NCBI GenBank assembly: GCA_017506865.1
Contig: JAFCMP010000093.1
Span: 62,001-126,000 of the forward strand
DNA from: Tribonema minus
Taxonomy: Eukaryota; Sar; Xanthophyceae; Tribonematales; Tribonemataceae
Length of the DNA: 64,000 nucleotides
Reading direction: 5' to 3'
Below the pieces are notes generated by a model. It was given only the letters and a program-made list of their open reading frames with translations. It made no database searches and was not told the origin of the DNA. Below are positions 1,959 to 38,887 of the stretch, in pieces; within the stretch, counting starts at the first letter, position 1, and each line of letters starts with the position of its first letter. A program made the position numbers and the translations under genes.

Positions 1959-2085
1959 CCTCTCGAGTACTTCACATACTTCCGCTTGAGGGCAGAAACC
2001 CTATGAAAGAGATGTTTGTATGCAAGACATGCAGATGTGATGTCCGTGCAGAGCGTGAGCTGGCACAGGTGAAAGCATGCGCTAT

Positions 2086-7621: not shown

Positions 7622-7630
7622 CGGTGATAT

Positions 7631-7790
7631 GTACTTTTTATTGCGCTATGTACTTTTTATTACTTCTCGCTCGGGGCGCAAAAAAGCTCAGTTGAATGGC
7701 ATCTAAGGTTGCTGTTCGAAATCTACATGTCGTGTGACAGTCTGAAAGTGTCTCAATTGCAACCACTCAAACATCGCCGCTGCCAATATA
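7631..7790 (-). mobile_element. Divergent LINE 3'-tail fragment (copy D)
   Basis: The sequence after the second GTACTTTTTATTAC (7650) follows the 3' UTR of copies A and B with many substitutions: TCTCGCTCGGGGCGCAAAAA, AATCTACATGTCGTGTGACA, GTCTGAAAGTGTCTCAA and AACCACTCAAACATCGCCGC. Similarity fades near 7790. The terminal GTACTTTTTATT is present twice, at 7631 and 7650, separated by GCGCTAT. The same GCGCTAT precedes the 3' end of copy A, so the LINE 3' terminus may carry a short tandem repeat. The tail is older than copies A-C. Confidence 0.7.
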
Positions 7791-8219: not shown

Positions 8220-9378
8220 GTCATTGAGCTGAGCTGTGCGCTGTCAGCAGTGACTGAAAGATGCTCAGCAGCCGGAGCTTCAAAGCGAATGGGAGACTAC
8301 AACTAGAGATCAGGTGGTGAAAAGAGAAGCAGGGCTAACGTCAGTACGCTTCTGATGGTTCTACGACTTGATGCAGCATCACAATAATGATGTATGTCAC
8401 GAAATGATGACGCGCGGCCATGCTGCCTGTGGGTTTCAGGGTAGCCTTGCATTTTGCCACACCTCACCTCTTTTGTTCAAGACGTCACAGGCGCTTACAG
8501 TTTCAACATTGGCATAAGATGCACACATCATGGTATCACCAGGCCTTGTGGCTCTGTTAGCGTTCCTGACGCTTTGCGACGTGCAGGTCCAATGGTGTCG
8601 ACAGTAGCTGTGATCAGGCACTACGACAGGCGCTGGGGTTAGGACGAAGCCTATTCTGCCATGTGTCAACCTGAAGAGCTGATGCCAGGCCTACAGTATT
8701 AGTGAATTGCCAGCGTGTGTGTTAGCCTGACGAAGCTGATTTGCCATGCGCTGCCGGACGAAGCGTTATCTGCCATGAAGCCTTATCTGACATGCGCTGT
8801 CAACCGGACGAAACCTTGTCTACCAGCGTGCGCGGTGCGATGTGTGTGCGGTACACACAGAGACGTTCAAGTGAGTCGGGGAGCTGGAGAGAGACGCCGT
8901 ATTTGATACCGAACAAAAACCTCGCTGGCCCACGAAGATGGCGTGAGCTCGCCAGTCGGTGATCGTAGTATCGTCACCATTCAGGCCTATACCAGGAGCG
9001 AGCCTGCTATCGCCGCCTGCTTCGTCCGTATACTACGTAGTTGCGAATCGGAATCGTAATTACGCCCATCGGCTAGGCTTTAGAAAAAGGTTCAACTGAC
9101 TGAACCGGAGCAGTATGGCATGGGGGGGGTGTATGCAACATCGTGCCCCCATGCCTCCTACACACACCGGCATTTGTTTGTAAGTAAACCGGCATTTGCC
9201 GACGAAGGCTTCTTTCTTCTGGAAAGATCTTGTCTTCGTGGACCGACAAAGAAGCGCGACGACTGACACACTCAGCGGCACATCGAGGAGCTAGCGAAGC
9301 TTGCGCTTTTCAACAACATCTTACCTTTGCACAGCTCGTGTGTGCACAGCGAGACGTGCGCATGCACAGGGGGTTAAC
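8220..9378. repeat. No gene; short degenerate GACGAAGC repeats near 8640-8830
   Basis: No exon series is visible. Between about 8640 and 8830 the core GACGAAGC or GACGAAAC followed by a YTGCCATG- or CTACCAG-like element recurs at about 8643, 8728, 8757 and 8806, suggesting a decayed short repeat. The rest shows nothing recognisable. Confidence 0.35.
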
Positions 9379-9795
9379 ATGGCGTGGGACGCTGATCGCG
9401 TGGCGCTCGCAGTGGATGAAAGCGGCATCGGCTGTTGGGTCTGGTGCACCAAGTCAGGCGAGATAGCGTGGAATTCCCACATGTACACGCTGTTCGACAA
9501 GGAGCCGTCGTCTGGGCCAATCAGCTACGAAGCAGACTTTGCCACACGACTGCATCCCGACGACTTCGCCCGCATCAGCCGGCTAGTGGAGGCTTCAGTC
9601 AGCTGCGGCACGCGTTTCAACGCCTGCTATCGAGTTCTGCACCGCGACGGCTCCGCAATCAGTATCATGGCGTGCGGGGGGGAGTCTGTCGAAGGCAGCA
9701 TGGTCGGCACCTGCGTAGATGTCACCAAGCTGTTGACCACCAAGTTGCATGAGAGCGGGGTCGCGTCGTCGGAGCACCCTTTGCTACGGCAGTAG
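9379..9795 (+). CDS. Single-domain PAS protein
   Basis: A 138-residue intronless ORF almost filled by one PAS domain. It has the PAS_3-type pattern: an N-terminal GIGCWVW beta strand, WNSHMYTLFDKE, an RLHPDDFARI helix and the C-terminal MVGTCVDVTKL strand. It closely resembles the N-terminal PAS domain of the kinase gene at 26451-29380 (WNPHMYTLFDKD, RLHPEDQ, LVGTCLDIT), so the two are paralogues. The start is placed at ATG 9379, where that similarity begins; an in-frame ATG at 9301 would add 26 basic, unstructured-looking residues. PAS domains bind small ligands, haem or flavin, or mediate dimerisation; the ligand here is unknown. No output domain is visible. It could be a dominant partner of the PAS-kinase, or a truncated duplicate. 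Confidence 0.7.
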   Translation: MAWDADRVALAVDESGIGCWVWCTKSGEIAWNSHMYTLFDKEPSSGPISYEADFATRLHPDDFARISRLVEASVSCGTRFNACYRVLHRDGSAISIMACGGESVEGSMVGTCVDVTKLLTTKLHESGVASSEHPLLRQ

Positions 9796-13775: not shown

Positions 13776-13796
13776 GTGTGCATGTGGGTAGGTATT

Positions 13797-16700
13797 GTAC
13801 TTTTTATTAATTCTCGCTCAGGGCGCGAAAAAGCCCAGATGATTGCCATCTAGCTGTAAGGAATCTACATGTCGTATGACAGTCTGAAAGTGTCGCAACG
13901 ACAACCACTCAAACGCCGCCGCCGCCAAATGGCATCTCGGGGTCCTTCCCTACGTCCTCCTCCATGTGCCCCCCTCCCCTGGATTCTGCCATGTGTGTCA
14001 TGACACGGCCAGAGTACGCCATGTGGAGCGCTGCCGACAGTGCCGAGCGTAAGCGCGCCAGGGCGATGCCCTTGAGAGCTTTAGGGCGCGCTCCTCCGGG
14101 CACTGACATCCTGCTGGCATACTCCGTCGCCACAGCCTCCAGCAACTTCCGCCCCTGCTCCCCGATGCTGCCAAATGACCCTATTGCCAATGTGGCAAGT
14201 TTGTAGCAATTCTGATCATAATGACCAGAATAGTGGGTAGTCTTGGCGGCCTCTTGGTCGCGGCAGCATCGCTCGGGGTCTGCTGCAGTCTTCGCCGCCC
14301 GCGACGCCACCTGTGCCTCGAAGCAGGTAACGTCCACCATGAGCGGTAGGTGGCGTGTCGGGTCGTCGTAGCCGGTCACCGGGAAGGCGTCGGCAGGCAG
14401 CACGATGTCCATCCTGCGACTCCCCGGCGGCCCGGCGGACCCCAGAAACGGCGTGTAGTCCTCGTCCACCAGTCCCGTTTTGAGGTATTGCCGCAGGAGG
14501 CGCTGCGTGGCCCTCTTGACGCTATTGTGGACAATGGTGTCGTGCGCCTTGACGCGTGGCGCTTGACACAGCCGTGCATGCAGGGTGCCGCCCGGCGACT
14601 TCCCGCACAGCTTGCAGCCTGCCGTCTGCTCCTCTACTCCGATGGCGCGTTTGACGGCCAGCTGCCAGGATAGGCCATCGAACGAAGCCGTTGTGGAGTA
14701 CATGGGCTCGTTGAGGAATGCCATGCCGATCGAGTGCATGTGGCGCTGCGACCGGAATCGAGCAAGTGCTTGCGTGCGTTGCGTGCCCTGCGGCAGCTGT
14801 TGCAGGTCCGCCTCCACCTTATCTGCAAGCTCGGTAGCGACGGCATCTGCAAGCGCACTCTGATTGGGGCACTTCAGGCTACACTGCAACTGCAGAGCAC
14901 TGGCGTCAAGTACGCAAGCAGCATCCGCACCAGTGCCACCACCTGCTGTCGGCCGCAGCGGCGGCTGCTGCGTAGGTGGTTGCTGCTGCAGTGGCGTTAG
15001 CGCTGGTGGCAGTATATGTTCCAGCTTGTCACCTGTTGCTGCACGTAGAGATGTGGCAGCTGTGGCGATCGTCCGCATGAGGGGCAGGCGCGCCACCTCT
15101 GCTGCTGCTGCGCCTTGTAGCATTGCTGGTGTGGAACGCGCAGCGCCTGCATTGACGGCTGCCGCTGCTGCGTGCGCTGGTGCTGCAGCTGTGCCGCCTG
15201 CCGTTGCTGCTGCTGCCAGTGGTGTTGCTGCTGCCGCAGGTGTTGGTGCAGCACCTGCCGCATTGGCCGCTGCCACCGCCATTGCCGCTGTCGCAGCCGG
15301 CACGGTTGCGGCGCCGCCTGCCGACGCTGCTCCTGTTGCAGGTGCTGCAGCAGCCCTTAGGCTAGTAGGGCCTGTAGCAGCTGTATTGCCTATGCCCGCA
15401 GCCGCTGCTGTTGATGCTGCAGTTAGTGATGCCGCCGAGGCCACTTGAGGTGCAACATGTGCTGCCGCTGCTGCAGCAGCCTCTGATGCTGGAGCAGCTG
15501 CTGCTGCCGCCGCTGCTGCTGCCGCCGGAGTAGTTGCGCCGTGCGCCGCCGCTGCTGCTGCTGCCGCTGGTGCCGCCTGTGCTGCCGCCGCGGCCCCTGA
15601 TCCAGCGGCAGCTGCGTCGTGTGTTGCCGGAATGGCTGCGCCATAAGCGCGGCCAGCCGCTGATGCAGTTGCCGCTGCCGGAGCGGTCGCGCCTCCACTG
15701 GCAACCGCCGCTGCCGCTGTAACAGTTGCCGCTGCTGATGCTGCTGGTGCTGGTGCTGCTGCCGCTGCTGCCGGTGCCGCTTGTGTTGCCGCATCCTCAG
15801 CAGCGTTGTCTGCAGCCGCTTGATGAGCCGCCTGCTGCAGCACCCCCGCCCATCCAGAGAGTGCTGGTTGCAGCGCTTGCAACGTGCCCGCCACATACGC
15901 AGCATCAGCGATGTCGCAGGCGCTGGTAATGCCAAGGCCGCCATGCCGTGTTGGGAGTCGCGCTTGCTGTAAGGCTGGGCCGTGCGCTGCCAGATGGAAG
16001 TGGGCCCCACTTTGCTCAAACTGGCGCCAGGTCTGGCCTGGTGGCTGCAGGCCCATTGAGTGCTCAAGCACCCACTGCGTGACCCGATCCCACTCCTTGG
16101 CGGCTGGCGCTGTCTGCGTAGTGGGAATGGTGCGCAGGCAGTACGTCATGCGAGGCACCACGCAGTAGCGCAGTAACCTGAACATAGCCCTCGGAGATGT
16201 CAGGCGCGCGCATCGCTCTGCAAATCGAGCCCCTGCCCCGCCTGCACCCGCTTCCCTGCGCAGCCATGCGTCCACAAAGCTGCTGTGGCCCACCGGCACC
16301 CCCAGCAACACAGCTCCACGGTTCTGATTTTCATCCGTATCCCCCACTAGCTGAACGCCCAGCTGCTGCAGCAGTTGCCGCTCGTGGTCTGTCACGACAT
16401 GCCCCCTGCCAGGCAGCGCGCGTGACTTGGTGAGGTTTAGCTCCAGCCCCACCTCCGCAAAGTGTTGTTTGAGCTGCGCCACCGCCTGTATGTCATCCTG
16501 AGTCAGCGTGCAAGCGCCTGTTCGGACGTTGGCATCGTCCATGTAGGCGCCCATCCGCCTCCGCGCGCGCTGCGCAGCCGCCGCCTCATTGAACCGTTTC
16601 AAGCACTGAGCAATGGCGCCGCAGAAGAGCATCGGTGCCGCGGGGTCCCCCTGCTTAAATCCGCGCTGAGACATGATGATGCGCGTGGAGCCGTCAACGT

Positions 16701-19314
16701 GCTGGAACAGCAGGCGTGGCCGAGTGCGAACGTATGTGCCGATGAAGTAGTCGAGGAAGTCCGGCAGCTGTGCTGCTACCCATTCCGCTGCCGCCAGGAC
16801 GAACACCATGTTGAAGGCATTCTTGAGGTCCAGCATGAACTGCCAGTGACCGAGCTCATACGCGAGTTTGCCGGCCATGGCCGCTTTCTCCCCTCCTGCT
16901 GAGACGGCTACCCCATACTGCCCGTCTGGCTCAAGGAGCTCCGCCAGGAAGTCTTTGCGGTCTGCCACGTACACCGAAGTGCATAGTCGCTGCAGCACCT
17001 CGCCGCAAACGATGGGCCGCTGCTTAGCTGTACCATCTTCCTGTTGTTCTGCAAGTGGCGTCAGGCGCCCCGCGCCATGCAACTGCCAGAAGGCATCCGG
17101 CAGCCGCGCAGCCTCCCGCATAACGGTCTGAAGCCACCGTGTGAGGACAGCAGCAAACTCATGCCGTCCCCAGCTTGTGCGTAGCGCATCCTGCAGGTGG
17201 CTGTAGCGCAGCCCCGATGGGCCTGCTCCACTGTAAGGGCTTGCTCGCTGGATGAGCTTGGCAACCGTCTCTGGCTCAATTCCCTCCCCCTGTAACAGGC
17301 TGAGTTCTGCTGGCATGTCGGCTGCTTTCGCCACAAGCTGATCAACCATGCCGGATAGCTCATGGAGTTGTTCCCCTGGCGCAGCGGGGGGGTGTTTGGA
17401 CTGCATGGCGGCAAAGCAGTCATCATCAGGTATCGCCACCGTTTTGGGCTGAAGGAAACGCGCTGCCTGCTGTAGCCCCCCCCGTGTGCCCATGCACTGT
17501 AGGACGTAGGCGTTGATCGCTGCCTCCGTTTGCTGGCGCGCGCGCCAGCGCCGGTGCGCACGCGCGTGTGCGAGGAGCGCTGGCACCAACCGGTCAAGCT
17601 CACCGCGTGCCAACATTCTGATTCTGTCGGAGCGAGTGATGCCAGGTGCGCCATCGGTGGAGGTGATGAGTGATGGCATGAGGTGGTGTAGAATCGTGGA
17701 TCTTTGCAGTCGCTGCACCCGCCCTGCGGAATCTGGCTCCCGCGCCGCATTGACGAACATCGTCATTGTGTGTGCCAACAGATGTGTTGCTGCGTTCTCC
17801 AGTGCAGCTCCCACATAGCGACGATTGCGTGGTCTAGCAAGGCTTCTAGTTGTCGCGAACTGCAGCTTGCACAGCTCATCGAGGCTGATGCTGTCAAGCA
17901 CTGCTGCGACTGCGGGGGTTGAGATGGTCCACGTGAAAAGCCCACCTGCCCCACCTGCTGCGCCTGCAGGGCCTGGCGCTGCCGCTGCTGTCGCCGCACC
18001 TGCCGCTCTGGGGCCCCCTCCGCCGCCGCCGCGGCCGCCACGACCACAGCCTCGTCCGCCGCTGTCGCTGCTGCGACCGCTGCCACGGCCACCGCGGCCG
18101 TTTTGAGTTCGCGCGCTACTGCCGCTGTTGCTAGCACCGCCGCTGCTGCTGGCATCACTGCTGCGGCCGTTGCCAGCGCCGCTGTCCTTAGTACCGGCTG
18201 CACTGCCGCCGCCGGCACCGCTGCTGCTGCCGTCTCCGGTTCTGCTGCCGCTAGTCGCTCTGCTACTGCTGATGTCTGCATCATTGCTGCCGCTGCGAAC
18301 GCGTCCTCCATTGCCACGTCCGCGCCCTCCACTGCGACCCCGACCCCCTCGTGTAGCACTGCTGCCCCCGCGTTCCGGCCTCTTTGAGCTGCCGGAGGAG
18401 CTGCTGCCACCAGCCTGAGCAGCAGGTGCCTGCTGCGCGTGCGCTGGTCCCTTTGCGTAGGGGTTGCCGATGGGTGTGCACGCCGGTTGCTGCTGTGGCA
18501 GCGACGTGGTAGCTGTTGCCGTCGATGCATCAGGTGCTAGCGGTGCTGCTGATGCTGTTGTTGACAATGTTGCCGCCACTGCAGCGGGAGAAGTGATAGG
18601 CCTGCATTTGCGGCAGTGCTTGCCCGCGCTGGCATCGCTGCTGTCCACTCTGAATGTCTTGTTGGCATGAAACAGGTTTTTGCACAAGGCACACTCGGTG
18701 TAGATGGTTTGCAAGTGCGACGTGCTGAGGTCGGACCGCTCCAGGAACGTTGTTGCTGTCCCACTGTGGTGTTTGCGCTGGTGCTTCGCCGCGATGTGGG
18801 CGTTTAACCTCTGCTGTAACGAGAGCAGCGACATGCCCTTCTTCACCACGAGGTCGCATAAGTTGCACTTGTACTCCGGGTCCGCACTGCCTCCACCTCC
18901 AGCTTCGTCGTCTAGCATCAGACGTTGCTGTTCCAGACTGTTATGACCTGTTCTAGAGCGCTTGACTGCACTTTGCCCGCCCGTGTGCTCCCCTTCGCCT
19001 GTTTGATCGGAAATTGACCAACCGTCATTCTGTACCCTCTTGCGTTTGTGCGCTGCGCGTCCGTCTCCAGTTGCTCTGCTGCTGCCACTCGTGCCATCGT
19101 CCTGTTGACAAGCGCCATTGCCATCTGCAGCACTGGTGCTAATATCCTGCGCTTGTGCGCACGCTAGATCGGATTCCTTGCATTTCTGCGCTGATTCAGA
19201 GTTGGCAATACGGGCCTCCCGCCGCCGCCATGATATTCTTTTCATGATCTCTGCTACGCCATGGTGCTACATGCTACAGCTACATACCTATCCGCATCTC
19301 GTGGAGGCCTACTA
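13797..19314 (-). mobile_element. Full-length LINE, copy B, inserted antisense in intron 2 of the receiver gene
   Basis: Collinear and nearly identical with copy A over its whole length, including the 5' leader, ORF, 3' UTR and terminal AATAAAAAGTAC. It accounts for most of a 6.4-kb intron (13763-20155). Differences from copy A are scattered substitutions plus in-frame indels in the GCN-rich parts. No unambiguous short target-site duplication is seen, but the flanks carry related exon-end copies. Confidence 0.9.
13909..19245 (-). CDS. LINE polyprotein (copy B)
   Basis: An intact 1778-residue ORF with the same domain order as copy A: C2H2 finger, Gly/Ser/Arg-rich linker, reverse transcriptase with LDLKNAF, GDPAAP and YMDD, Ala-rich spacer, CCHC, and an endonuclease region with RRMDIVL and LMVDVTC. 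Compared with copy A it is six residues shorter through in-frame losses, including fewer Ala codons in the spacer and small changes in the Gly/Ser linker. Single substitutions include Cys for Arg after QLQCSLK. Length changes confined to triplet tracts, with the frame kept open, fit a recently mobile element. Confidence 0.9.
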   Translation of the reverse strand: MKRISWRRREARIANSESAQKCKESDLACAQAQDISTSAADGNGACQQDDGTSGSSRATGDGRAAHKRKRVQNDGWSISDQTGEGEHTGGQSAVKRSRTGHNSLEQQRLMLDDEAGGGGSADPEYKCNLCDLVVKKGMSLLSLQQRLNAHIAAKHQRKHHSGTATTFLERSDLSTSHLQTIYTECALCKNLFHANKTFRVDSSDASAGKHCRKCRPITSPAAVAATLSTTASAAPLAPDASTATATTSLPQQQPACTPIGNPYAKGPAHAQQAPAAQAGGSSSSGSSKRPERGGSSATRGGRGRSGGRGRGNGGRVRSGSNDADISSSRATSGSRTGDGSSSGAGGGSAAGTKDSGAGNGRSSDASSSGGASNSGSSARTQNGRGGRGSGRSSDSGGRGCGRGGRGGGGGGPRAAGAATAAAAPGPAGAAGGAGGLFTWTISTPAVAAVLDSISLDELCKLQFATTRSLARPRNRRYVGAALENAATHLLAHTMTMFVNAAREPDSAGRVQRLQRSTILHHLMPSLITSTDGAPGITRSDRIRMLARGELDRLVPALLAHARAHRRWRARQQTEAAINAYVLQCMGTRGGLQQAARFLQPKTVAIPDDDCFAAMQSKHPPAAPGEQLHELSGMVDQLVAKAADMPAELSLLQGEGIEPETVAKLIQRASPYSGAGPSGLRYSHLQDALRTSWGRHEFAAVLTRWLQTVMREAARLPDAFWQLHGAGRLTPLAEQQEDGTAKQRPIVCGEVLQRLCTSVYVADRKDFLAELLEPDGQYGVAVSAGGEKAAMAGKLAYELGHWQFMLDLKNAFNMVFVLAAAEWVAAQLPDFLDYFIGTYVRTRPRLLFQHVDGSTRIIMSQRGFKQGDPAAPMLFCGAIAQCLKRFNEAAAAQRARRRMGAYMDDANVRTGACTLTQDDIQAVAQLKQHFAEVGLELNLTKSRALPGRGHVVTDHERQLLQQLGVQLVGDTDENQNRGAVLLGVPVGHSSFVDAWLRREAGAGGAGARFAERCARLTSPRAMFRLLRYCVVPRMTYCLRTIPTTQTAPAAKEWDRVTQWVLEHSMGLQPPGQTWRQFEQSGAHFHLAAHGPALQQARLPTRHGGLGITSACDIADAAYVAGTLQALQPALSGWAGVLQQAAHQAAADNAAEDAATQAAPAAAAAAPAPAASAAATVTAAAAVASGGATAPAAATASAAGRAYGAAIPATHDAAAAGSGAAAAAQAAPAAAAAAAAHGATTPAAAAAAAAAAAPASEAAAAAAAHVAPQVASAASLTAASTAAAAGIGNTAATGPTSLRAAAAPATGAASAGGAATVPAATAAMAVAAANAAGAAPTPAAAATPLAAAATAGGTAAAPAHAAAAAVNAGAARSTPAMLQGAAAAEVARLPLMRTIATAATSLRAATGDKLEHILPPALTPLQQQPPTQQPPLRPTAGGGTGADAACVLDASALQLQCSLKCPNQSALADAVATELADKVEADLQQLPQGTQRTQALARFRSQRHMHSIGMAFLNEPMYSTTASFDGLSWQLAVKRAIGVEEQTAGCKLCGKSPGGTLHARLCQAPRVKAHDTIVHNSVKRATQRLLRQYLKTGLVDEDYTPFLGSAGPPGSRRMDIVLPADAFPVTGYDDPTRHLPLMVDVTCFEAQVASRAAKTAADPERCCRDQEAAKTTHYSGHYDQNCYKLATLAIGSFGSIGEQGRKLLEAVATEYASRMSVPGGARPKALKGIALARLRSALSAALHMAYSGRVMTHMAESRGGGHMEEDVGKDPEMPFGGGGV

Positions 19315-19344
19315 GTATATTGTACATGCACAGAATGCGGCGCC

Positions 19345-19394
19345 GAGCGCTGGGGAGGAGGTGCCGCTGCTGCATGCAGGTATGTAGATATTGT
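19345..19394 (+). repeat. Exon-2 end plus donor, repeat copy 2
   Basis: GAGCGCTGGGGAGGAGGTGC, CGCTGCTGCATGCAG, then GTATGTAG. It differs from the real exon end by only a few bases and keeps a usable-looking donor. It lies between LINE B and LINE C in intron 2 of the receiver gene and could act as a decoy or alternative exon end. Confidence 0.7.
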
Positions 19395-19519
19395 AGAAGG
19401 AGTTTGGGGGTTTCGATGCTTGTGAGAAGTCGGTTTTGTGCTGCACGGTACGCTTCGTGATGTATGTGTGTACGGGTGTGCCATCCCCTCCTCTTATAGA
19501 AGTACACGCGTGTCTACTT

Positions 19520-19806
19520 GTACTTTTTATTAAATCTCGCTCAGGGCGCGAAAAAGCCCAGATGATTGGCATCTAGCTGTGAGGAATCTACATGTCGTAT
19601 GACACTCTGAAAGTGTCGCAACGACAACCACTCAAACGCCGCCGCCGCCAAATGGCATCTCGGGGTCCTCCCCTACGTCCACCATGTGCCCCCCCCCCCC
19701 TGGATTCTGCCATGTGTGTCATGACACAACCAGAGTACGTCCATGTAGAGCGCTGCCGACAGTGCCGAGCGTAAGCGCGCCAGGGCGATGCCCTTGAGAG
19801 CTTTAG
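19520..19806 (-). mobile_element. 5'-truncated LINE, copy C
   Basis: Starts with the same terminal GTACTTTTTATTAAATCTCG and follows the 3' UTR and the last codons of the LINE ORF up to CTTGAGAGCTTTAG, then ends abruptly. That is the usual 5' truncation of incomplete reverse transcription. It has small deletions against copies A and B near 19678 and substitutions in the coding part. Its orientation matches A, B and D. Confidence 0.8.
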
Positions 19807-20397: not shown

Positions 20398-21954
20398 CAG
20401 CGATGCGGCTCCCGCGGCGGGGGCGCGCGCAGCGGCGGCGCCAGCGGCAGCAGCAGCGACTCGCGGCTGCTGCGGCCAATTGGGGGGAAGGCGGCGGTGA
20501 ATAGGGGGGGCACATTTGGCCCCATGCGCTACGAGCACGGGGGGGATATGGGGTGTGCGCCGCACGAGGTGCTGGTGGTGGAGGACGACGCGACTATGAG
20601 CAAATTCCTGGCGGTGAGTTGTAACTTCTGGAAGGTTCTGGGAGGTTCCGTAGGGTTCTGACAGCAGGCAGGGTGCGCCAAGTTTGCATGGAGACGTGCT
20701 CTTAGCAGTCGTGCAGGCAACAAGGGTGCTTGGAGGGAACAAAGGCGATGGCTGCACATAGCATACACACGTGGGGGTGAGGGGAGGGGGTGAGGAGGCA
20801 GCAGGCAGTTTGGTGATTCAGAGGCATGTATGTGTTGACAGGTGTGGGCATTGTGGCCGCGTGTTGCTTGAGCGGTCCGCCCCTCCTGAGATTCTATGTT
20901 CCTAGGTGCGTGTGCATGAGTACGTAGGATGTACGCGGCTTGATAACGTTGTGCACCGAGTGGGCATTGGATAACGCCTTGGCATCGTTTGGCTAATCGT
21001 GTTGCGCTCATTAGACCAAGTAGGCCGAAAAGGTCGTAGACTGTCGCATCACGCCAAGTGCGGATCCTTGAGTACAACACTGCTGCTATCAGGTTGGCAG
21101 CAGGTGAGTGTGCGTCGCAGCATAGATGAGTAGTTCTATTATGTGCTTGAGCAGGCTGCCAGCGGGTAGATTGCTGTAGAACCAATGCGAATGCAGGCGC
21201 AGCATGCAGATGCCATGATGTGCTGACCAAGTTGCTGGGCACTGAGCAGCACAGGAAGCACCCAAGATGGTGTCATTTGCGGCTCATTGTGCACGCATAC
21301 AACAGTGCATGCGCCTTCTTCCTCTACTCAGGTACTTGTTGCGACGGTTCTGAAGTCCTCACTTGCTTAGCGCTGTGCCCTGTGACGCCCCCATGCAGGT
21401 GATGCTCAACAGACAGGGCTATCACGTCCAGCTTGCTGGCAACGGGTCACCAGGTATGTATGGACCTTAAGCATATGCATATGAGGTTTGTACTCACAGC
21501 ATGAGCTTTGACCTTCAAGTTTGAGGTTTGTACTTCATTTGGATGCTGTCGCCAGTGTCACATATACTTGAAGTATTAGGTTGTACATCGTGTCAATTTG
21601 CTTGCTGTCGCCAGTGTCAGATACATCTGCCGATTGCACGTTCCATGTTGGCGACAGCGATGGGGAGTGGTGCGTGATATGGACCAGACGCGCACACATT
21701 TTCACAATGAAGTGCGTGCTTGCACGCGCAGACAAGTGTTTGGGGGGTGCTGCATGGATTTGTGCATGCCTTGAAAACAATCTTGCATTTCTTGCAAGAA
21801 TCACTTGTGCGGCGCATTTACGTGAAGTGGTCAGTTACGGGCAGCTACAAGATCAACTGTGAACCGCCAAGGACCTCTGCATCATTGCACCAGCAAGCAG
21901 CGCGCTGTGGCGCGATCAATGGCATCTTGAGGACAACTGCACAGATGCCTGATT

Positions 21955-22180
21955 AGTGTTGACCGCCGAGCACTGCTGCTGCTGTTGACGGCTGAGCACT
22001 GCTGCTTGCTGTTGAATGCTGAGCACTGCTGCTGCTGCTGTTGACCTCCAAGCACTGCTGCTGCTGCTAATGACCGCTGAGCACTGCTGCTGCTGCTGAG
22101 CACTGCCGCTGCTGCTGACCACCGAATGCTACTTTTTGCTGGTGAATGCTGAGCACTGCTGCTGCTGCTAATCGCGAATC
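21955..22180 (+). repeat. GAGCACTGCTGCTGCTG minisatellite in intron 4
   Basis: The unit (A)TGCTGAGCACTGCTGCTGCTG recurs at least six times with variable GCT number and spacers such as TTGACGG, TTGAATGC and AATGACC. The array fills the end of the intron before exon 5 of the receiver gene, leaving about 15 bases to the GCGCAG acceptor. Confidence 0.8.
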
Positions 22181-23188
22181 GCGCGCGCAGGGCCTGGAGG
22201 CGATGCGTGCGCAGGCAGTGCTCACCGACACGCACATACATGCCCGTCATGGGCGGCTACGAGCAGGTATGTATGTATGCATGGGTGTGTCTCCCCTGTG
22301 CAACCCCCATTGTTTTGGCGTTGGTGCACTCATGCGTGGCCCCCCTGCGTTTCACATGCAAGATTGACACCTGTGAGCATGGCCCCTGAGGTGCGTCGGT
22401 GCTTTTACAGCAATGCGAATCCGGCTGCTGGTGTCAGGGTTGCAGAAGGATCTCTGTTGTGGCACCAGAGAGTCCGTAACTCTGGGTCGGGACTCATACT
22501 ATACTAGCAGTTGGGATGCATGCTGACAGCCTCAGGCCTTGTGTGTTGTTGCAAGAGCTCATCACCGTATTTGGGGGCACAGCACGCATGTGGCTGTGGT
22601 GCCGTGGCATATCTGCTGTGGAAGCGACAAGTTCGCTACGGGGGGTTCCGCTGCCATTCCTGCTGAAGCATCCATGCGCAACAAAACAGTTGATACGTTC
22701 GCGTGGTCAGATGCTGGCATGCTGCGACATTCATGCAGCTGGCTGCAAGTCCGACAAACCGCTGTCGCTATGGAAATATGCACACCATGCTCCTCGTGTG
22801 AACGCTGTGTACGTCTGCTGAGCACAAGGGTGTGTATATATGCATTACGAGAAGGCACAAGTAATGCCTGTGCAACAGCAAGGTCGCATTCCGCTCTGCG
22901 TTTGCTGTGCATGATCACTGAAAGTCAGCAGATGCAGGTCACAGGCAGCTCTCACTAGCACGCACCTGCCTAGGCCGTCCTTTGGGCGCCGGTGCTGTTG
23001 GCGCTAAATGCAGCGAACACCATCGCTCACTGTGCGCGCGCGCGCATCGTTTCGCTGCAATGCGCCGCAGGTCCGGCTGCTCCGCGAGTGGGAAGGCGGC
23101 CTCCCGCCAGACGCGCCCCCCGCGCCGCCAGTTCATCATCAGTACGAGCGCTGACGCCGTGGACTCCGCCATCGACGCCACGCGCTGG

Positions 23189-23560
23189 GGCTGCGATGCC
23201 TACCTGCCAAAGCTGGTGAGCGCTGATTTAGAGAGTGCTGCAATGCCTGCCTGCTAAAACCAGTGAGTGCAAATTGAAAAGAGGGCTGCAATGCCTACCT
23301 GCCAAAGCCGGTGAGCGCTGATATAACGAGTGCTGCGATGCCTGCCTGCTAAATCCAGTGAGTGCAAAAATGAAAAGAGGGCTGCGATGCCTACCTGCCA
23401 AAGGCGGTGAGCGCTGATTCCAAACAGCTTGGGTCAGGCTTAGGTCAGGGTACAGAGCGAGCGCTGCAGACCTGTGAAAGTCAGCGAGGTCTGCTTGCCA
23501 AAGCCGATGAGCGCTGATTTAAATATGCCAACCTGCCAAAGCCGCTGAGCGCCGATTAAC
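23189..23560 (+). repeat. Tandem array of the exon-6 end plus its splice donor
   Basis: GATGCCTACCTGCCAAAG and the following GTGAGCGCTGAT are first seen at the true end of exon 6 (core at 23195). The core returns at 23242, 23290, 23337 and 23386, a period of 47-49 bases. Alternate units form two types: A (GCCTACCTGCCAAAG, then GTGAGCGC) and B (GCCTGCCTGCTAAA, then GTGAGTGC), giving a ~96-bp dimer. Weaker copies follow near 23490 and 23535. Each unit keeps a plausible donor. The unit at 23290 codes LPKP, the usual receiver ending, whereas the exon itself has LPKL. Confidence 0.85.
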
Positions 23561-24477
23561 GAGCTTGGGTCTATCAGGCGTAGGTGAGGGTCAAAGTGTG
23601 AGCGCCGCTGCTCTGTCGAAATTAGTGGGCCCTGCTTGCGAACCCTGGGTCAGGATTAGGTCGGTCTCAGACAATGAGCACGGCTATGTGATTTGTTGAT
23701 GCTGAGCACGAGGGCTGACTCTTTTCCTTCTCCGGAGGGAAGTCAGGATCAGAGGGTCAGCATGAGGGTCAGCAAGAGTTTCTGTCCTCGCCTGTCAGCA
23801 CGACCGCTTTGTCTGCGGAGGTCACCTTGGCATCGGCAGAAAGTGGGTGAGCATATGGCTTCTGGCGTCATTGGGACTTCAATCAAATTGAGCTCCGTTA
23901 GCCCTTCTCATAGCGCAAGTCAGGGAGGGCCAGGTGCATTGTCTGGAGTCCGCAGGGACTAGCACGGCTCCCCATGTTTTCATGGTTGCATGTGGTGGCG
24001 GCATCTTAGCAAAGAAGGCTTGCTCAAGCCTTACAGCAGGCAGTCAGCGCGCGCTGGCATTGGAGCCGCCACTTTTATACTTGTTCAAGTATGTTGCATC
24101 GTAATGCAGCGATGGGTATCGTGACGGAGCGCGGTGGGCACAGACAGGCAATGCGCGGAGCTGCACATTGTTGCCAAACGGCGCAGCAAGTAGCCTGGAC
24201 CTAAGGCTTGCGGCCATCTCATGTGTATGTGCGCACCTCTGCAATGTCCCGATGACCGCGCAGCGTCAAAGATATGCGCACAGACCCTGTGACTTGACTG
24301 GCAATTGCTCATTGTTTACATAGCATTACTTGACAGTACTCCACGATGCTCTGCAGCCCGTATGTTTTTATATATATCGCTCGACTGACTGGTTCCATTG
24401 AGCTTCGTCCGCTGCGCAGCGCGCAACAGGTGGACATGGGCGCGCTGTCGTCGCTGCTACGCACGCTGGCGGTTTAA

Positions 24478-24512
24478 GAGAAGGCAGATGCCAGCGAGCA
24501 AGGGCAGGGACC

Positions 24513-26450: not shown

Positions 26451-29380
26451 TTACGGGCACTGGCGCCCAGAAGGGGAGCGAGCTGGCAGACGGCGCTGCG
26501 CAAACGGATTTGGTCTAGATGCGAGGGGCACCTGCGCGGAGTGAGGTTCCTGCTGCCTGCGTGCACTGAGCGCAGCGCCGCTGCCGCTGGCAGGAGCGCA
26601 AATGCTGTCATTGTTGATTGACGCCACCAAGTCCTGAGTTGTCGTGTACTTGCCGCCCCTGAGTCTATGGAGGAATTGGCGTGTCCACGAGTGTGACTGC
26701 TCGCTGACTCGTGGCATCCATATGGCGGCATCCGGTTTGTTGGTCACAAATTGAGGGGCATCACTGCTGTCGGTGACGTCACACTGGTCGCTGCCGCTGC
26801 TGCCGTTCAGCTCTGCGTCGCCGTCACCATCGCTGAAGTAGCTGGACTGAAGGAGGTCCTTGGCGGTGGGGCGGCCAGCAGGATCCCAGCTGAAGCATTC
26901 GACAAGGAGGGCGCGCATGGAGGGGCTGATGTCCGGCGGCAGCGGAGGTGTGCGGTGGGTCTGCATTGTCTGCAGCAGTGCCAACACCACCTTGTTCGTG
27001 CCCAGCAACGACCTCCAAGGCGCGTCGCCAGTGAGCATCTGAAGGATGACGCAGGCAAAGGCCCACACGTCGACAGCCATGCCGTGGCGCTGGCGCTGCA
27101 GCACCTCTGGCGCCATGAAGTACGGCGTTCCCATCAGCTTGGTGTGGCGGTCCTGCAAGTCAAAGACCTGCTCGCTGGTGCCAAAGTCGGCAATCTTCAC
27201 TACGCCGCTGGTGCTGACAAGCACATTGTCGCCTGTGTGGGATCCACACGAAAATAGAGAGTAAGTGTGCAGCAATTTTGGTAGACTTGTGCAAATGCAA
27301 TTGAATTCTATAAATGAGTTTGCTGCTGAGAGACGTGATTCTACATTGTGAGTTGGCAATGACTAATAGGATCGCAAATTCGATCATTCAATTTATCACA
27401 AGCACGAGTAACAACATCATCGACTGTATGTTTTCCAAAAAAGCTCATGTAGTGTTGTTGTGTGTGCCAAGGGCAAAGAACATACCGGCGCCGCAGTGAC
27501 AGAGCGAAGTTGTGATGCATGCACTATTGTGACAGTTTACACATTTCAGCATACTGCTGTGAGATTGCACATCTGCCAATGGTGCGACTACAACAGGGGA
27601 AAGCATTGCCTGCCACCATGTATGCGCAACAGTGGCTATAATGCGAGCCTGCTCGCAAGCTTGCCCAGGTGCAGTTGGCTTTTTAAGTGCACAAGTACTA
27701 CTGGGTCCTGTAAGAGTGATGCTGGCATGCACTCCACCCCATAACTGCAATTCACAGGCCTCCGTGTGCCACAAGCCTCGCCTTCACCCACCCGCTCACG
27801 CACGCACTACTAGCCGCAGATGTCTGAGATGTGCTAGGCCACCTTGACTTTCACCTTGGCTTAAGTGTGTGTCAGTGCATCTGTGATTGTCGTACAGGTC
27901 ACAATGCGTTGCATTGACCACCTGGGCGCACATCTGCAGCAGGGCCAACACCAAATCGAGCTATTAGAGTCGACCATTCATGTACATAGTCCATATCATA
28001 TGACTACAATGATATCACGATTGGACCAGCAATCTGCTTCTCGCCTTTCAGGTCATGGTGGACGATGCCGCAGCTGTGAAGGTACATGATGCCTTGTAGT
28101 ATCTGGTGTGCGTAGCAGCGGGTGACGCGCTCCGTGAACGGGCCAAAGTTCTGAAGGATGCTGCAAATGCTGCCACCAGGGACCCACTCCTGCAAGATGC
28201 AGACCCAGGATCCGTGCAGCTCTGCACCCAGGTAGCCTACGATGTTTGGGTGACGGCAGCGTTGCATGAGAAGGACCTCGTTGGTGAGCTGGTTGGCCGT
28301 GTTGTGATTTCCAAACGACGTTAAACAAGCTTTGACCTGAGGTGTGCGGTAGCGGTGCAGCAGCAGCAATGAGCTGGTTGGCTGTGTTGCAGCAGCAGCC
28401 TACTAGTAGTACGGTCACTGACGGTCGAGCATGCACCAAGCTTCCAAGGCTGAACGAGACGTGCAACGGAAGCGCTGTACAGCAGTAGCACTCTCTACTG
28501 CAGCAGCAGTGGCAGCGTTGCCCACTGTGGCCGCAGCAAATTGCCAGCAGTAGCAATTCGTTTCACAAGACTGACGTAGACATATGTACACGCAGATGGC
28601 ACTGCATTATGCAGTAGCTAGCTGTCAGGTGGCTCAGGTGCAAAGGGCATATGACACGATGTCATATCTCGAGGCACTCAAACCCAAGCGCGATGAAGGG
28701 GGATATACGGGGCGCAGTGCTTGAAGATCGAGGGCCGTGCTTACCGCAATGAGCTCCCCTGTCATCTGATTGAGGCCCATGTGCACCTGACCGAAGGCAC
28801 CCCGCACTATGCATGGGCCTAGTTTCCACTTCCCTCGCTGAACAGACTGAGTCCTCGTGACGGTGCTGCTGCTGCTGCTGCTGCTGGAGCTGCTGTTGCG
28901 GCTGTCACGAATTGCCCCTTCGTCATCGTGCTTCATCCCGGCCTGACCGTGCACGAGCTGCAGCAGCTTCACCTCCTCCTCTGGCTGGCTCATTAAGCCT
29001 GTGATGTCAAGGCATGTGCCTACAAGAGACGTGGTGCCATCTGGAGTGGTGACAAAGTCGGCGCAAGCCCGGACTCTCGTCACGGACCCGTCTCTCCGCA
29101 CGACGCGATAGCACGCCTCGTAACCACGTCCTGCTTTGACCGCGTCGTCCAGCAGTCGCCGGACGGTAGGCTGGTCCTCTGGGTGCAGCCGCGCCATGAA
29201 ATCGGCCTCGAAGTCCACTGGCCCAGAGCGCCAATCTTTGTCGAATAGCGTGTACATGTGAGGATTCCACGACAGCACACCGGTGTCTTCGTTGCACTCC
29301 CAGCAGCCGATGGCGCTAGTCTCAACGGCTTTCAGCACGGCATGCGTCCGGAACAAGGGTGACGTGTCGTGCGCCCACAT
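26451..29380 (-). CDS. PAS domain-containing Ser/Thr protein kinase (MAP3K-like), non-RD
   Basis: Three exons: 29380-28745, 28336-28045 and 27232-26451, 569 residues, with matching phases. PAS domain at about 15-130 (WNPHMYTLFDKD, RLHPEDQ, LVGTCLDIT), then a ten-Ser run and a kinase domain from about 185. Catalytic parts: loop RGAFGQV (194-200, first Gly of the motif replaced by Val), AVK with Lys214, helix-C Glu232, HHDLK with Asp307, Asn312, DFG 325-327, GTPYFMAPE ending at 352, and DVWAFACVILQMLTG. The sequence resembles STE11/MAP3K-type kinases. The usual HRD is HHD, so it is a non-RD kinase. Intron 2 has a GC donor (AAAG/GCGAGA, 28044-28043) and an AG acceptor, and splits the catalytic loop. 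The tail after about 440 is low-complexity. It is probably a cytosolic sensor kinase. The first exon's start is the only ATG before the PAS similarity. Confidence 0.85.
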
Positions 29381-30039
29381 GGCAGTCCATGCGCTGGTTG
29401 AGTGAAAAACAGTACGGCTTGACGACCCTCGAGCACCAAAAGGGCATCACAGTCACAGCTTCATGCCAAGACAAGACAACGTTGAAAATAGTGTCATAGG
29501 CGAGAAACTTCGAACGGGAGTGCTAGCTAGAGTGCAAAGATGCTGTGGCAGCTGCTGCAACACACGCCAAACTGCACTGAGGACACACGCCTAAACTGCA
29601 CGCAACTTTTGAGGGCGTCTGTTAATCACGACCAGCTTGGAAGAGAAACCTTGGAAAGGAAAGAGCGCCCGTGCCCGTTGGTCACGATGACAAGCTTGAA
29701 GAGAAAGCACGCGCCCACCACGGTGTGTGTGTCAACGAATGATCCACAGGAATGTTTGCAAGGGGAGATAGAGAAGACCCCCCCTCAGAGTAGATGCCCT
29801 CAGACACTACTTAGAGTTCAAAGCTGTGGACAAACACCTCAAGATTTGTGTGGGCAACACGCATCAAAGTGCGATGAAGAGAACTAGTAGTCAACAGTTA
29901 GGCGGATGTGTGTGTGGCGCCATGATCATGATGGGGAGTGACTGCCATGCCCATAAGCTAGCAGCGGTAGCGGCATGTATTCAGGCATGCACCACCCCGA
30001 TACGCCATACGTCCTGCACGGAAGTACGTCAATGTTTAC
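29381..30039. other. Upstream of the PAS-kinase; no gene recognised
   Basis: Presumed promoter and 5' region of the minus-strand kinase gene, with only short open frames. Nothing recognisable. Confidence 0.4.
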
Positions 30040-34304: not shown

Positions 34305-37300
34305 TTAACCACCGCTGCGCGCCTTGGAGGAGGTTCTGGTGGAGCGGGAGCCGCTGTGCATGCGTGATGAGCGTCCCGACTTGAAGTTGAGGTCTGCGCC
34401 GTCCGCACCACTAGCACCAGCTTCAAGCAGTGCCTGCACGGCGCCCGCTGCGCCCACGAGCGTGGCGATGGCGAGTGCGGTGCTGCCGCGCGAGTCCACA
34501 ACGCTCAGCGGGGCGTCGGCCGCCAGCAGCGCATTGACGAGGGCCTCCAGTCTGTAAATACATGATGAGGGGAGATACTCATACTATCAGTAAGCGTCAG
34601 TGAGAGTTGCGGGCTCCGGCAGGCACGTTTGAGGCAGATCTGTGACTGACACCTTCAAGTGCAATTTAGTAATGCAAGCAATTGTGTTGGTGGTTGTTGC
34701 AGGACTGCAACGCTTATGATGCAAACAGCTCCTCTGGTGGATCGCCATCAGGCAAACAGCCTGAGTACCTCTGGGGCATGCGTGCATGCATTAATACGAA
34801 CGTGCGTGCGTGCTTCTGTACTTAATGTACATCTGCTCATATACACGTACGTACACGCCTACATGGACGTACAGTACTCACCTACATTGAAGCACTATTA
34901 GACTAACGAGCGTATGCATGATGCCGTCAAATCGTGTATCATTTAGCCCATCAATCATCACAATGGGGCTCACACCATAAAAAACAGCTTGGCGGCTCAT
35001 GCTCTGCTTGCTGCCTTGAAGTTATCCGTGCGGAAACACCATTCACATATTCCGATGCACACATACGCCTGTGGGTGCAAAAAAGTACCTGAGAGCGCAG
35101 GCGGCGTGCAGTGGAGTGTCACCCTTGGCGTCAGCCTGCGCTGCCAGCGCGCATCGATCGCTCCGCTTGCAGGCAGCCAGCAGTGCCAAGCCCGCCTGCG
35201 CATACGAGAGCGGATTTTAGGGTAGGATTTGAGTAGCATGATACTTCTATGAGAGTGGCACAAGCGATGGCAGGGTGCACCTGGTAGAGGAACTTAGCAC
35301 TTGACTTCAAGTTGAGGGCAGCCAGGTGCAGGAAGGAGCTCTGCTGCACACCTGAGCGAGTATCTCACTAAGCAGGTGAACCTGCACATGTACTTCTGGA
35401 AGCAATAAAGCATTCAATGCGACAAAAGAACATGTGTCACTCTGCCGCCGTCTTGAAGCAGAAAGATTTCAAAGTACCATGGGATGGTTCTTGAACCATT
35501 GTCACCTACCTTGCACAATACTGGATCCCAAGCCCGCATACTAAACACATTGACCTCAAACTCTTGCACATTGACCTCAAACTCTGGCGCTTGTGAACGT
35601 CGAGCGACTGTGCGCTTGAAGCTGCAAGCAAGTGGATGCCACCAGTGCAGGCATCATACATACTCCAAATTTGAAGTAAATACCTTCTCCTTCTTGTTGA
35701 GGCAGGCGTGCATGAGCGCTGTCCTGCCATCCGCATCAATGCTCAGCATGGAAGCGTCGTGCTCAATGAGAGCAGCTGCAACATCGCCGTGGCCCCATAT
35801 GCATGCGCACATGAGAGGCGTGATGCCCCCTGCCTCTGAACCTGCAATGTTTCAAGCGCACGCATCAGCAGAGCAGACAACATCAGAATTAATTAGAGCG
35901 CTTGAAGGGTCTCACGGCACATCAATGACCAAGGATTTTATGGATGTTGGTTTGAACAAAGTCATTTATCTGCACGGTAAACTGCACTGAGAGCTTGCAT
36001 GCAACAAATAGCAACCGCTTCTAAAATGCAGGACTGCCTGGTGGCACAGCTAGGAATGGTCATTGTCACAAATCTAGCCCTGCATAGTACATGCATGATA
36101 CATTTTCCCTCTTCACCGAGGTTAGGTTTGACCTGATGCTGGAGCTCTCGTCATATGTGCTTCTCTGCACAAACGCCCTTCCTGACTTGAGCAAAAGGGC
36201 ATTCGACCCAAGTTGACTGTGCTTGAATCTGTGTAGCACGACCGATGTCTGAGCTGTCGTGACGTTGCGACGGTTTGTAATGTGCGCACGGCCGATGTTT
36301 GTGCCGTTGACATATGGCAATCATTGGGGTAACGTGTCTGCACTGCGTGTGCGTACCAAACTGCTGGCCGCTCCTGCGACATTTTGGATCTCAACTACTT
36401 TGTATAATGTCTATCAAAGCTTTATTCACATGCAATGCCCGCCTGCTTGCACGTGTGCGCAAAAAGCACCAAAAACACCGCTTCCCATAATCAAATGCCG
36501 CACTGCGGAGCACTGCAGTCCACATAGCTTGATATACCCCAGTACAGCGTGAACTCTGGCCATCTCTCACCCAGGGTACTGCTGACGTAGCTCTCGCATG
36601 TCAAGCCATTCTCGTGCACCGCCAAGATGGCCCGGTTGACATCAGCACCGTGGTTGATGAGCAAGGACACTGTTTCTGCGCAACCGCTTATGCAGGCTGC
36701 CATCAGCGGCGTGAGCCTCTGCCGAGCACTGTGACCGGGCACGGTGACGAGCGCTGGGGAGGGATCCACAGGCGCGCCCTGATTCATGACAAGATGTGCG
36801 ATTGCAGCAAGGGCGCCAGTTGCGATGAGGCCATGAGGTGCGGGTGGTCCATCCCTGAACGCATCATATGTGGCCAGCAGGGCTTAGTTTGCGGCAGTGC
36901 TCCTTTCATGAATAACATGCAAGGTGCAGCAGCACGTGACACAGCAGCCTGAGAGAGATGGTCACGCAGCAGCCCGAAACTGTAGGCCTCCAGCTCATGC
37001 ACTGCTTTTGGCAGGAAAATTTACATGCATTCATGGTGTACATGTGAATGGCATGAGTGTGTCAGGAATATGCAGGGAAGGCATGTGCAGGATTAGGCAC
37101 AAAATACGTATGCTCACAGAAACTGCGAGTAAGCAGTGTAGTGCGGAGTCCATCCCAGTGCGTGATCGAATGTGCTCCTAAATGTCAGTGTATAATGAAT
37201 AGGTACAGAAAAGAGAGCACGGTGTGACAAAGGTGTACACAAGCTCTCCGGGTCGCTGCCAGTGCATGAATCTGCTGAGAGCGACATTTAGGCACCAAGG

Positions 37301-38887
37301 CTACATGTGGTCATGAACATCAAAAGTTCAAATGCACATGATCATCAGAAGATGTCGGGTCTGCTGTAGCATCCTCTGCATGGAACATCAAGATGGACTT
37401 CTCAACGTGACCACAAATTTCAGCGAAATGGCTCAACTCTGAAACTGGCAAGTGGAGGAACATCAGCTGAGCACTGCCCAGTGCAACACCACAACAGCCA
37501 ACTGCCAACACTTAATTATGAGCTACATCAAGTACCCCAAGTGACAGCACTGCTCAACATGATCAATGCTGTCCTTGAAGTCCCCAGCTCCGATGCAGCC
37601 GTTGCCGCATTTCAACGTCTGATGTAAGGCTTGAGCAAGGGCATGCAGATGAATGATTGATGATCATTCTCACAGTATGTACACAAGAAGTGCACCCACC
37701 TTGCGCAGCAGCATGTCGACAGCCATCAGGCTGCCGCCGCCGACCAGACACGCCGACAGCAGCGCTCCAGCGCCGCAGTCACTGAGCAGTGCCACGTCAG
37801 CACCGGCCTGCATCAGCAGGCACGCAGCGCGCACTTGCTCGTGCTGCAGGGCGACCATGAGGGGCGTGTTGCCATCCGCGTCCCTGTCATCCAGGCCTCC
37901 ATAGCTGGAAGGCTGGCCGCGCATGCTCAGCCGCGGGTGCGAGCCCTGGTGCGCCAGCTGGCACAGGCGGCCAGGCTCGGAGCGCGAACTGGCCATGCAC
38001 TGCAGCCTCCTGGGTGGTGCTGCATGATGCGGCTGCCGCTGGTGCTGGTGGTCAGAGTCGGCCAGTTCTGAGCCGGCACCCCGAGTCTGCTCCGAGTCGG
38101 CGGCTGGGTACAGGAGGGCCAGCATGCGCGGTACGTCGCCCGCTGCCGCCAGCGCCAGCAGTGTGGAGTCTGGCCCCTGTGAGTGTGTTTCTGACTGCGC
38201 CCTGTCGTACCAGCTCTGAAGGATGAAGGCGCGTCCCGAGCGCGCCGGCATGATGAACTCGCTTGAATCGGTGGGGGATCGTGGGTGGTCCTGAGATGGT
38301 GAAGAAAAGTCAACAAGTGTGTACTCAGTTGCTCGCAAGTGTGTACTCAGTTGCTCGCCATAAAGACAAGCGCTTGTTGAGTCAGTGTATGCCATAATTT
38401 ACGCTGTCACAATGCATCATCATTACAATGCAGTAGTAATTTGGTGTTGCAACAGCACCCCTAGCACATCACTGGCAATCATCATGACACAACATCCGTA
38501 CGTGTGGAGCCTAGGCAGGTGCCATGATGCAACGATGTGGCCAATCTGTGTGCAAGGCAGCAGCACCGCTGAACAAACTGGCCGTGCATTCCAAGTTCGT
38601 GGCAGTAACAGATATAGCCTGCAGTCTTAGAACACCTCTCCCAGGATGCACAGTTCTGAAACATTGCATTTAATTTCAGCCGTTCCTGCAATCAAGTGCT
38701 GGCTCATGGAAGCAAGATGCGACAATTTCCCGGTTTCTGCTGTAACGATAAAGACATTCGACAGGTCTGGGCGCTTGCGGCTTGCCGCGTGAAGTTCGCC
38801 GTGAACCTCGTGCCGGCAGGGCGGTGTAGTGTTTGCACTGCATGTATGTACCTCGGACCATTTCCCGCTGTCGGCCCGGTGGACCAT
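34305..38887 (-). CDS. Ankyrin-repeat protein
   Basis: Exons: 38887-38852, 38290-37700, 36778-36571, 35841-35684, 35195-35089 and 34551-34305 (TAA). All phases match; about 448 residues. Ankyrin units run across the joins: DADGNTPLMVALQHEQVRAA, CLLMQAGADV, DMLLRK joined to GAPVDPS, LTPLMAACISGCAETVSLLI, NHGADVNRA, GGITPLMCACIWGHGDVAAA, DADGRTALMHACLNKKEK, DAKGDTPLHAACAL, DSRGSTALAIATLVGAAG and QALLEAGAS. The tail is Ser/Arg-rich and basic. Ankyrin repeats bind proteins, and no catalytic domain is present, so the role is unknown. The first ATG is weakly supported: an open frame continues upstream to about 39110 (TLYRGDFRTYTSPQAW), so the true N-terminus may be longer. A short SGRAF motif in exon 2 recurs in an unassigned minus-strand stretch near 36160-36190. 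Confidence 0.82.

Follow-up and report, generated by a model that had tools for sequence, protein, structure and literature searches.

An A-B-A-B-A Minisatellite across an Exon End and Its 5′ Splice Site in a Broken Receiver-Domain Paralog of Tribonema minus

Introduction

Minisatellites are built of units of about 10–100 bases; such lengths are common in arrays of this type, as are higher-order dimers and decayed outer copies. A minisatellite with multiple splice donor sites was reported in the transcript of the human interferon-induced gene 6-16 by Turri, Cuin and Porter (1995, Nucleic Acids Res 23:1854), and that study is cited for minisatellite interference with splicing in a further paper (PMC3618361). 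In the potato RdRp gene, a tandem duplication spanning intron 1 and exon 2 led to a new intron (Ma, Lan and Niu 2016, PMC4974935). A literature search on minisatellites, exon-intron boundaries and algae found no paper. The array considered here lies at the junction of exon 4 and intron 4 of a receiver-domain gene in a 64,000 nt stretch of DNA from the xanthophyte Tribonema minus (contig JAFCMP010000093.1, positions 62,001–126,000, forward strand; assembly GCA_017506865.1, the one assembly behind the data on the array). This whole stretch is referred to as the window, and coordinates given without a contig name are positions within it.

Structure of the Array

The junction of exon 4 with intron 4 is repeated in five well-formed units of two types, A and B, which alternate in the order A-B-A-B-A (23188–23419, + strand). 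The array is real, and with head-to-tail copies and a unit length in the usual size range it fits a minisatellite. The unit beginning at 23190 consists of 26 exonic and 21 intronic bases. The units and the degenerate copies beyond them are as follows:

23188..23419, + strand: five-unit minisatellite, A-B-A-B-A; unit 1 comprises the last bases of exon 4 and the first of intron 4
23190..23236, + strand: unit A1, the exon 4 end (LPKL) with its own donor, GT at 23216
23237..23284, + strand: unit B2, GT at 23263; stop codon TAA at 23255–23257 in the exon 4 frame
23285..23331, + strand: unit A3, codes LPKP; GT at 23311
23332..23380, + strand: unit B4, GT at 23358
23381..23428, + strand: unit A5, codes LPKA; GT at 23407
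23464..23557, + strand: degenerate unit copies; at 23487 and 23525 the donor GT is replaced by AT and CT

Tandem Repeats Finder (TRF) reported the array at two periods, 47 (23188–23419, 4.9 copies, score 255) and 95 (23188–23418, 2.4 copies, 91% matches, score 392). The unit cores start at 23190, 23237, 23285, 23332 and 23381, that is, at spacings of 47, 48, 47 and 49 bases, so that one A-B dimer measures about 95 bases. A direct-repeat search recovered a 33-base core eight times, at spacings of 47, 48, 47, 49, 77, 23 and 38, the last three copies (23464, 23487 and 23525) being degenerate. Cores of the same type match at 34 of 36 positions, both for A against A and for B against B, while A and B cores match at 27–29 of 36 and whole A and B units at 31–35 of 47–48. 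Copies of the dimer are 92% identical over 86 nt, a difference of 8%.

The best ungapped lag score was 72 at lags 93–97 and 27 at lags 45–50, compared with maxima of 12 and 14, respectively, in 100 dinucleotide shuffles of 22001–24500. A 40-base query, made of the final 30 bases of exon 4 and 10 of the intron, scored 34 against the next 120 bases; the shuffle mean was 7.1 and none of 500 shuffles reached 34. The array is far beyond chance.

A first-pass annotation of this sequence had described an exon end and its donor repeated in tandem in two alternating types, and TRF, the unit cores, the direct-repeat search and the shuffles all bear this out. It had given the donor as GTGAGC, which is correct for the A units; the B units have CCA/GTGAGT. 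All five well-formed units carry the 5′ splice site sequence GTGAG, and all five the exon-like part. The annotation had also extended the array to 23560, and decayed copies do reach 23557, but the well-formed part stops at 23419.

The Single-Copy Paralog

The array sequence was searched against the 158 Mb assembly of the same genome (E values up to 1), giving three matches: the array itself, its own degenerate tail, and a single unit on contig C69 (C69:269039–269086, 92% over 48 bases). The C69 unit occupies the same exon-donor boundary, in one copy, within an older duplicate of the segment. The first-pass annotation had named a repeat common far from this gene as grounds for refutation; the search returned no copy beyond these three. 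A dispersed repeat family was rejected on this result, and no second allele of the array was found in the same search, which skips very common words and in which the absence of a match is no proof of rarity.

The window is collinear with C69 from 10407 to 30984, with gaps and with C69 inverted. Introns 1–4 differ between the two copies by 20, 23, 18 and 29% (503, 604, 772 and 239 aligned positions), and the exons differ at 52 of 792 positions. Intron 4 is 1214 bases long in the window versus 631 in C69. The tail of unit A5 continues into intron sequence that is found 3′ of the single donor in C69. In the C69 intron 4, no periodicity was detected (lag scores 9 and 9, against window-shuffle means of 8.7 and 8.4), and the intron alignment reveals no further unit core. 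The region 36000–40000 of the window had only two other matches in the assembly (E values up to 1e-10), of 136 and 186 bases, and the relationship between the window and C69 is therefore segmental rather than one of whole contigs.

State of the Host Gene

The C69 receiver is intact and its frame is open, with a score of 64.1 bits to PF00072 (cut-off 30.2); its best PDB match is 8phn, a chain named histidine kinase (E 3.3e-15). Upstream of it, HATPase_c is found in two stretches, which score 50.1 bits as joined peptides and 17.0 and 26.7 bits as separate frames (cut-off 26.4). The C69 gene resembles a hybrid histidine kinase carrying a receiver domain, its kinase and receiver exons being assigned to one gene from their order and strand. 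The window copy was modelled by alignment to C69:

11331..11552, + strand: linker exon belonging to this gene, with 80% protein identity to C69
20156..20613, + strand: receiver exon 1 (linker and receiver start), modelled via the C69 alignment, start read by eye
21399..21453, + strand: exon 2, one base extra relative to C69, in the G run 21444–21446
22191..22266, + strand: exon 3, four bases extra and nine missing relative to C69
23071..23215, + strand: exon 4, one base extra relative to C69, in the C run 23116–23121; reads LPKL where C69 reads LPKP
24430..24477, + strand: exon 5, ending early at a TAA that is absent from C69

The modelled borders of exons 2–5 retain AG and GT. The copy carries three frame-shifting indels (+1, +4 and +1 in exons 2, 3 and 4), and the four-base insert in exon 3 is directly 3′ of the presumed codon of the phosphoacceptor Asp. 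A functional receiver would show an intact PF00072 match above the cut-off; as spliced, the window receiver reaches 27.5 bits, below 30.2, and covers only the first 32 positions of the profile. A search of the 64 kb window with the two HATPase_c peptides of C69 gave nothing significant (best E 0.71). The first-pass annotation did not foresee that the array is hosted by a broken paralog, in which competition between donors need not touch any working protein.

Origin and Order of Events

We consider it probable that the array is an intron-edge minisatellite that arose over the exon 4 donor, within a truncated, frame-broken and decaying paralog. Replication slippage or unequal exchange, acting on the stretch from the 3′ end of exon 4 through the 5′ splice site, would have duplicated a single unit, and divergence of the copies would have yielded types A and B. 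A further round of copying, this time of the A-B dimer, would have given A-B-A-B-A beside the exon and decayed copies farther into the intron. With dimer copies differing by 8% and the introns by 18–29%, this copying of the dimer probably took place after the split of the paralogs. As noted in the first-pass annotation, copy 3 reads LPKP and the exon itself LPKL; since C69 also reads LPKP, copy 3 probably preserves the older state, from which the exon has drifted. Such drift would fit a loosening of constraint on the exon once the array was in place, and a selected effect would not be expected in a copy with a broken receiver.

Several observations weigh against this account, some of them concerning the decay of the gene. 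The three indels add up to six bases, and the predicted spliced frame is open as far as the early TAA. Two of the three fall within homopolymer runs, where an assembly error is possible, while the four-base insertion is of another kind; the homopolymer indels have no bearing on that insertion, on LPKL, on the early stop or on the lack of matches to the kinase peptides. The pairwise ratio of nonsynonymous to synonymous substitution rates (dN/dS), over 261 codons, is 0.18 (YN00) to 0.31 (NG86), which suggests a period of constraint on the window copy, rather than a copy already dead at the outset. Others concern the direction of change. Types A and B differ at 7–9 of 36 core positions and by 26–34% over the whole unit, about as much as the paralogs do, and the first duplication is therefore possibly as old as the duplication of the segment; it may predate the paralog split, in which case C69 may have lost its array. 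Only 239 positions could be aligned in intron 4. The suggestion of the first-pass annotation, that a minisatellite grew out of a coding-splice boundary, agrees with the single-copy state of this boundary in C69; with two copies to compare, either gain in the window or loss in C69 may account for the difference.

A tentative alternative, clearly less probable, is that the ancestral intron already contained the array, that C69 lost its own by contraction, and that the window retains the older state, later re-amplified. It departs from the slippage or exchange account solely in the direction of the first step. The A-B divergence, as large as that between the paralogs, speaks for it, and the degenerate copies deeper in the intron point to an old array; the C69 intron, however, shows neither a visible second unit core nor any periodicity, and divergence can proceed more quickly in minisatellite units than in the flanking sequence, which also counts against an ancestral array.

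Predicted Splicing Effects

The predicted U1 pairing energies of donors 1–5 are −8.1, −6.8, −8.3, −6.8 and −8.3. Donors 3 and 5 equal donor 1 in U1 pairing, so competition between donors is physically possible, and in a gene that is still transcribed the splicing machinery would have little to choose between donors 1, 3 and 5. Among 49 GT sites at 23601–24420, two are stronger than −6.8 and one is equal to it, the median being −1.9. One GT site of intron 4 outside the array reaches −9.3, above all of the array donors, and pairing energy alone therefore does not single out the array. Beyond donor 1, the exon 4 frame meets a stop at 23255, about 40 bases on and before donor 2, so that splicing from any later donor would terminate the protein at that codon: use of any donor past the first would add VSADLESAAMPAC and then stop.

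The first-pass annotation had raised the possibility of competing 5′ splice sites, and in its full form, in which the array serves a live gene and provides alternative C-terminal ends of the receiver, we regard this as improbable. It draws support from the five GT donors with energies of −6.8 to −8.3 against the median of −1.9 for the 49 GT sites, from the AG and GT retained at the borders of exons 2–5, and from dN/dS below 1. Set against these are the stronger site outside the array, the stop at 23255, past which the downstream donors lie, the break in the receiver frame around the presumed phosphoacceptor, and the unmatched kinase peptides. More doubtful still is a transcribed copy with a ladder of donors, or with A3 and A5 as small in-frame exons, in which repeat number would tune the receiver C-terminus. 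These putative mini-exons would have about nine codons, ending in LPKP and LPKA, with an AG just 5′ of the exonic part and a donor just 3′ of it; the stretch 5′ of the AG is A-rich and lacks a pyrimidine tract. Least credible of all is a false array from mis-stacked reads, an idea favoured by the use of one assembly but contradicted by the substitutions private to each unit, the spacings of 47, 48, 47 and 49, and the regular A-B-A-B-A order.

Neighbouring Elements and Other Arrays

A retroelement separates the linker exon from the receiver exons of the window copy:

13796..19806, no strand assigned: retroelement, its terminal repeats about 290 bases long

A second copy (2085–7786) is 99.3% identical to it over 5.5 kb, its right-hand repeat being matched over only about 140 bases, at 85%. 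The open frames of the retroelement are 1791 and 1785 residues long, and RVT_1 was found in the sister copy (2201–7573), the one copy scanned. The C69 segment holds a retroelement fragment of about 439 bases that is 98–99% identical. Exons encoding PAS and protein-kinase domains flank the receiver gene at 28637–29446 and 26454–27362 (− strand) and at 9295–9792 (+ strand). The PAS domain at 9370–9747 is 47% identical to that at 28988–29338 and has no significant protein match in C69 258000–283999; the truncated receiver gene may therefore have acquired a new 5′ neighbour. Elsewhere in the genome, contigs C90 and C179 share five receiver loci, with 87–98% identity in the longest matching stretch of each, a pairing that looks like two diverged haplotypes or subgenomes assembled side by side. 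Chlorophyll-binding proteins (PF00504) gave 83 matches and the RuBisCO small subunit (PF00101) none; for one of these chlorophyll-binding proteins the best PDB matches were LHCI chains of 9vfj, followed by ACPI and CAC chains, which marks the organism as photosynthetic and probably an alga.

The ends of exons 1, 2 and 3 are not repeated in the next 120 intron bases, where 365, 264 and 215 of 500 shuffles, respectively, scored as high. The first-pass annotation had reported a related effect at exon 2, which is not upheld by this comparison; a 20-base array at 21481–21537, 28 bases past the end of exon 2, may have been the source of the remark. This is one of three other short tandem arrays in introns 1 and 2 (20626–20660, 21481–21537 and 21957–22117), all with counterparts in C69, two of which begin 13 and 28 bases past an exon end. 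The 21481–21537 array has two donor-like GTTTGT sites with a U1 energy of −7.5. A likeness between the start of exon 3 and the reverse complement of the intron 2 array was weak (22 of 500 shuffles as high) and was taken as chance among several tests.

Tandem arrays (period of at least 15, score of at least 60) were collected by TRF from 39 sequences totalling 228,402 bases: the window, C69 248–290 kb, and 37 of 59 fetched loci, the other 22 being omitted as overlapping. A donor-like word on either strand was found in 2 of the 47 distinct arrays, namely the present one and one in locus L033, and this 228 kb sample does not point to donor-bearing arrays as a general habit of the genome. Counted with some loci entered twice, there were 3 among 60 rows, compared with 2.3 expected from shuffled units. 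The L033 array (L033:1988–2378, contig C514) has 4.1 copies of a 97-base unit, each with a donor-like word, and lies near a receiver-domain locus. A 232-base array placed at random so as to touch a 1214-base intron would cover the donor in about 16% of cases, or 232/(1214 + 232), and overlap with the exon end therefore needs no special cause.

Comparison with Known Systems

No new mechanism is indicated by the array. Its value lies in the clean comparison that nature offers here: a single-copy paralog in the same genome ties the minisatellite to an exon-donor boundary. The array could be used for testing competition between repeated 5′ splice sites, or the loss of splice boundaries in decaying duplicates.

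The human gene 6-16, also known by the names IFI6 and G1P3, has a minisatellite whose unit is reportedly about 26 bases long and whose donors are reportedly used in RNA. Both arrays consist of tandem units that each hold a 5′ splice site sequence. Unlike that of 6-16, the Tribonema array has a unit of 47–49 bases and an A/B dimer, its host copy is broken, and its donors are predicted from sequence. The potato RdRp duplication likewise crosses a splice boundary and copies splicing signals. It gave a new intron, of which there is no sign here, whereas the Tribonema locus is a multi-copy array across a donor, inside an intron that is modelled in the paralog too. With ordinary intronic minisatellites the array shares its unit length, its higher-order dimer and its decayed outer copies, and it differs in that the first unit overlaps coding sequence and a splice donor. 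As a donor-bearing minisatellite is already known in a human gene, the present array is a tidy and fairly ordinary further example.
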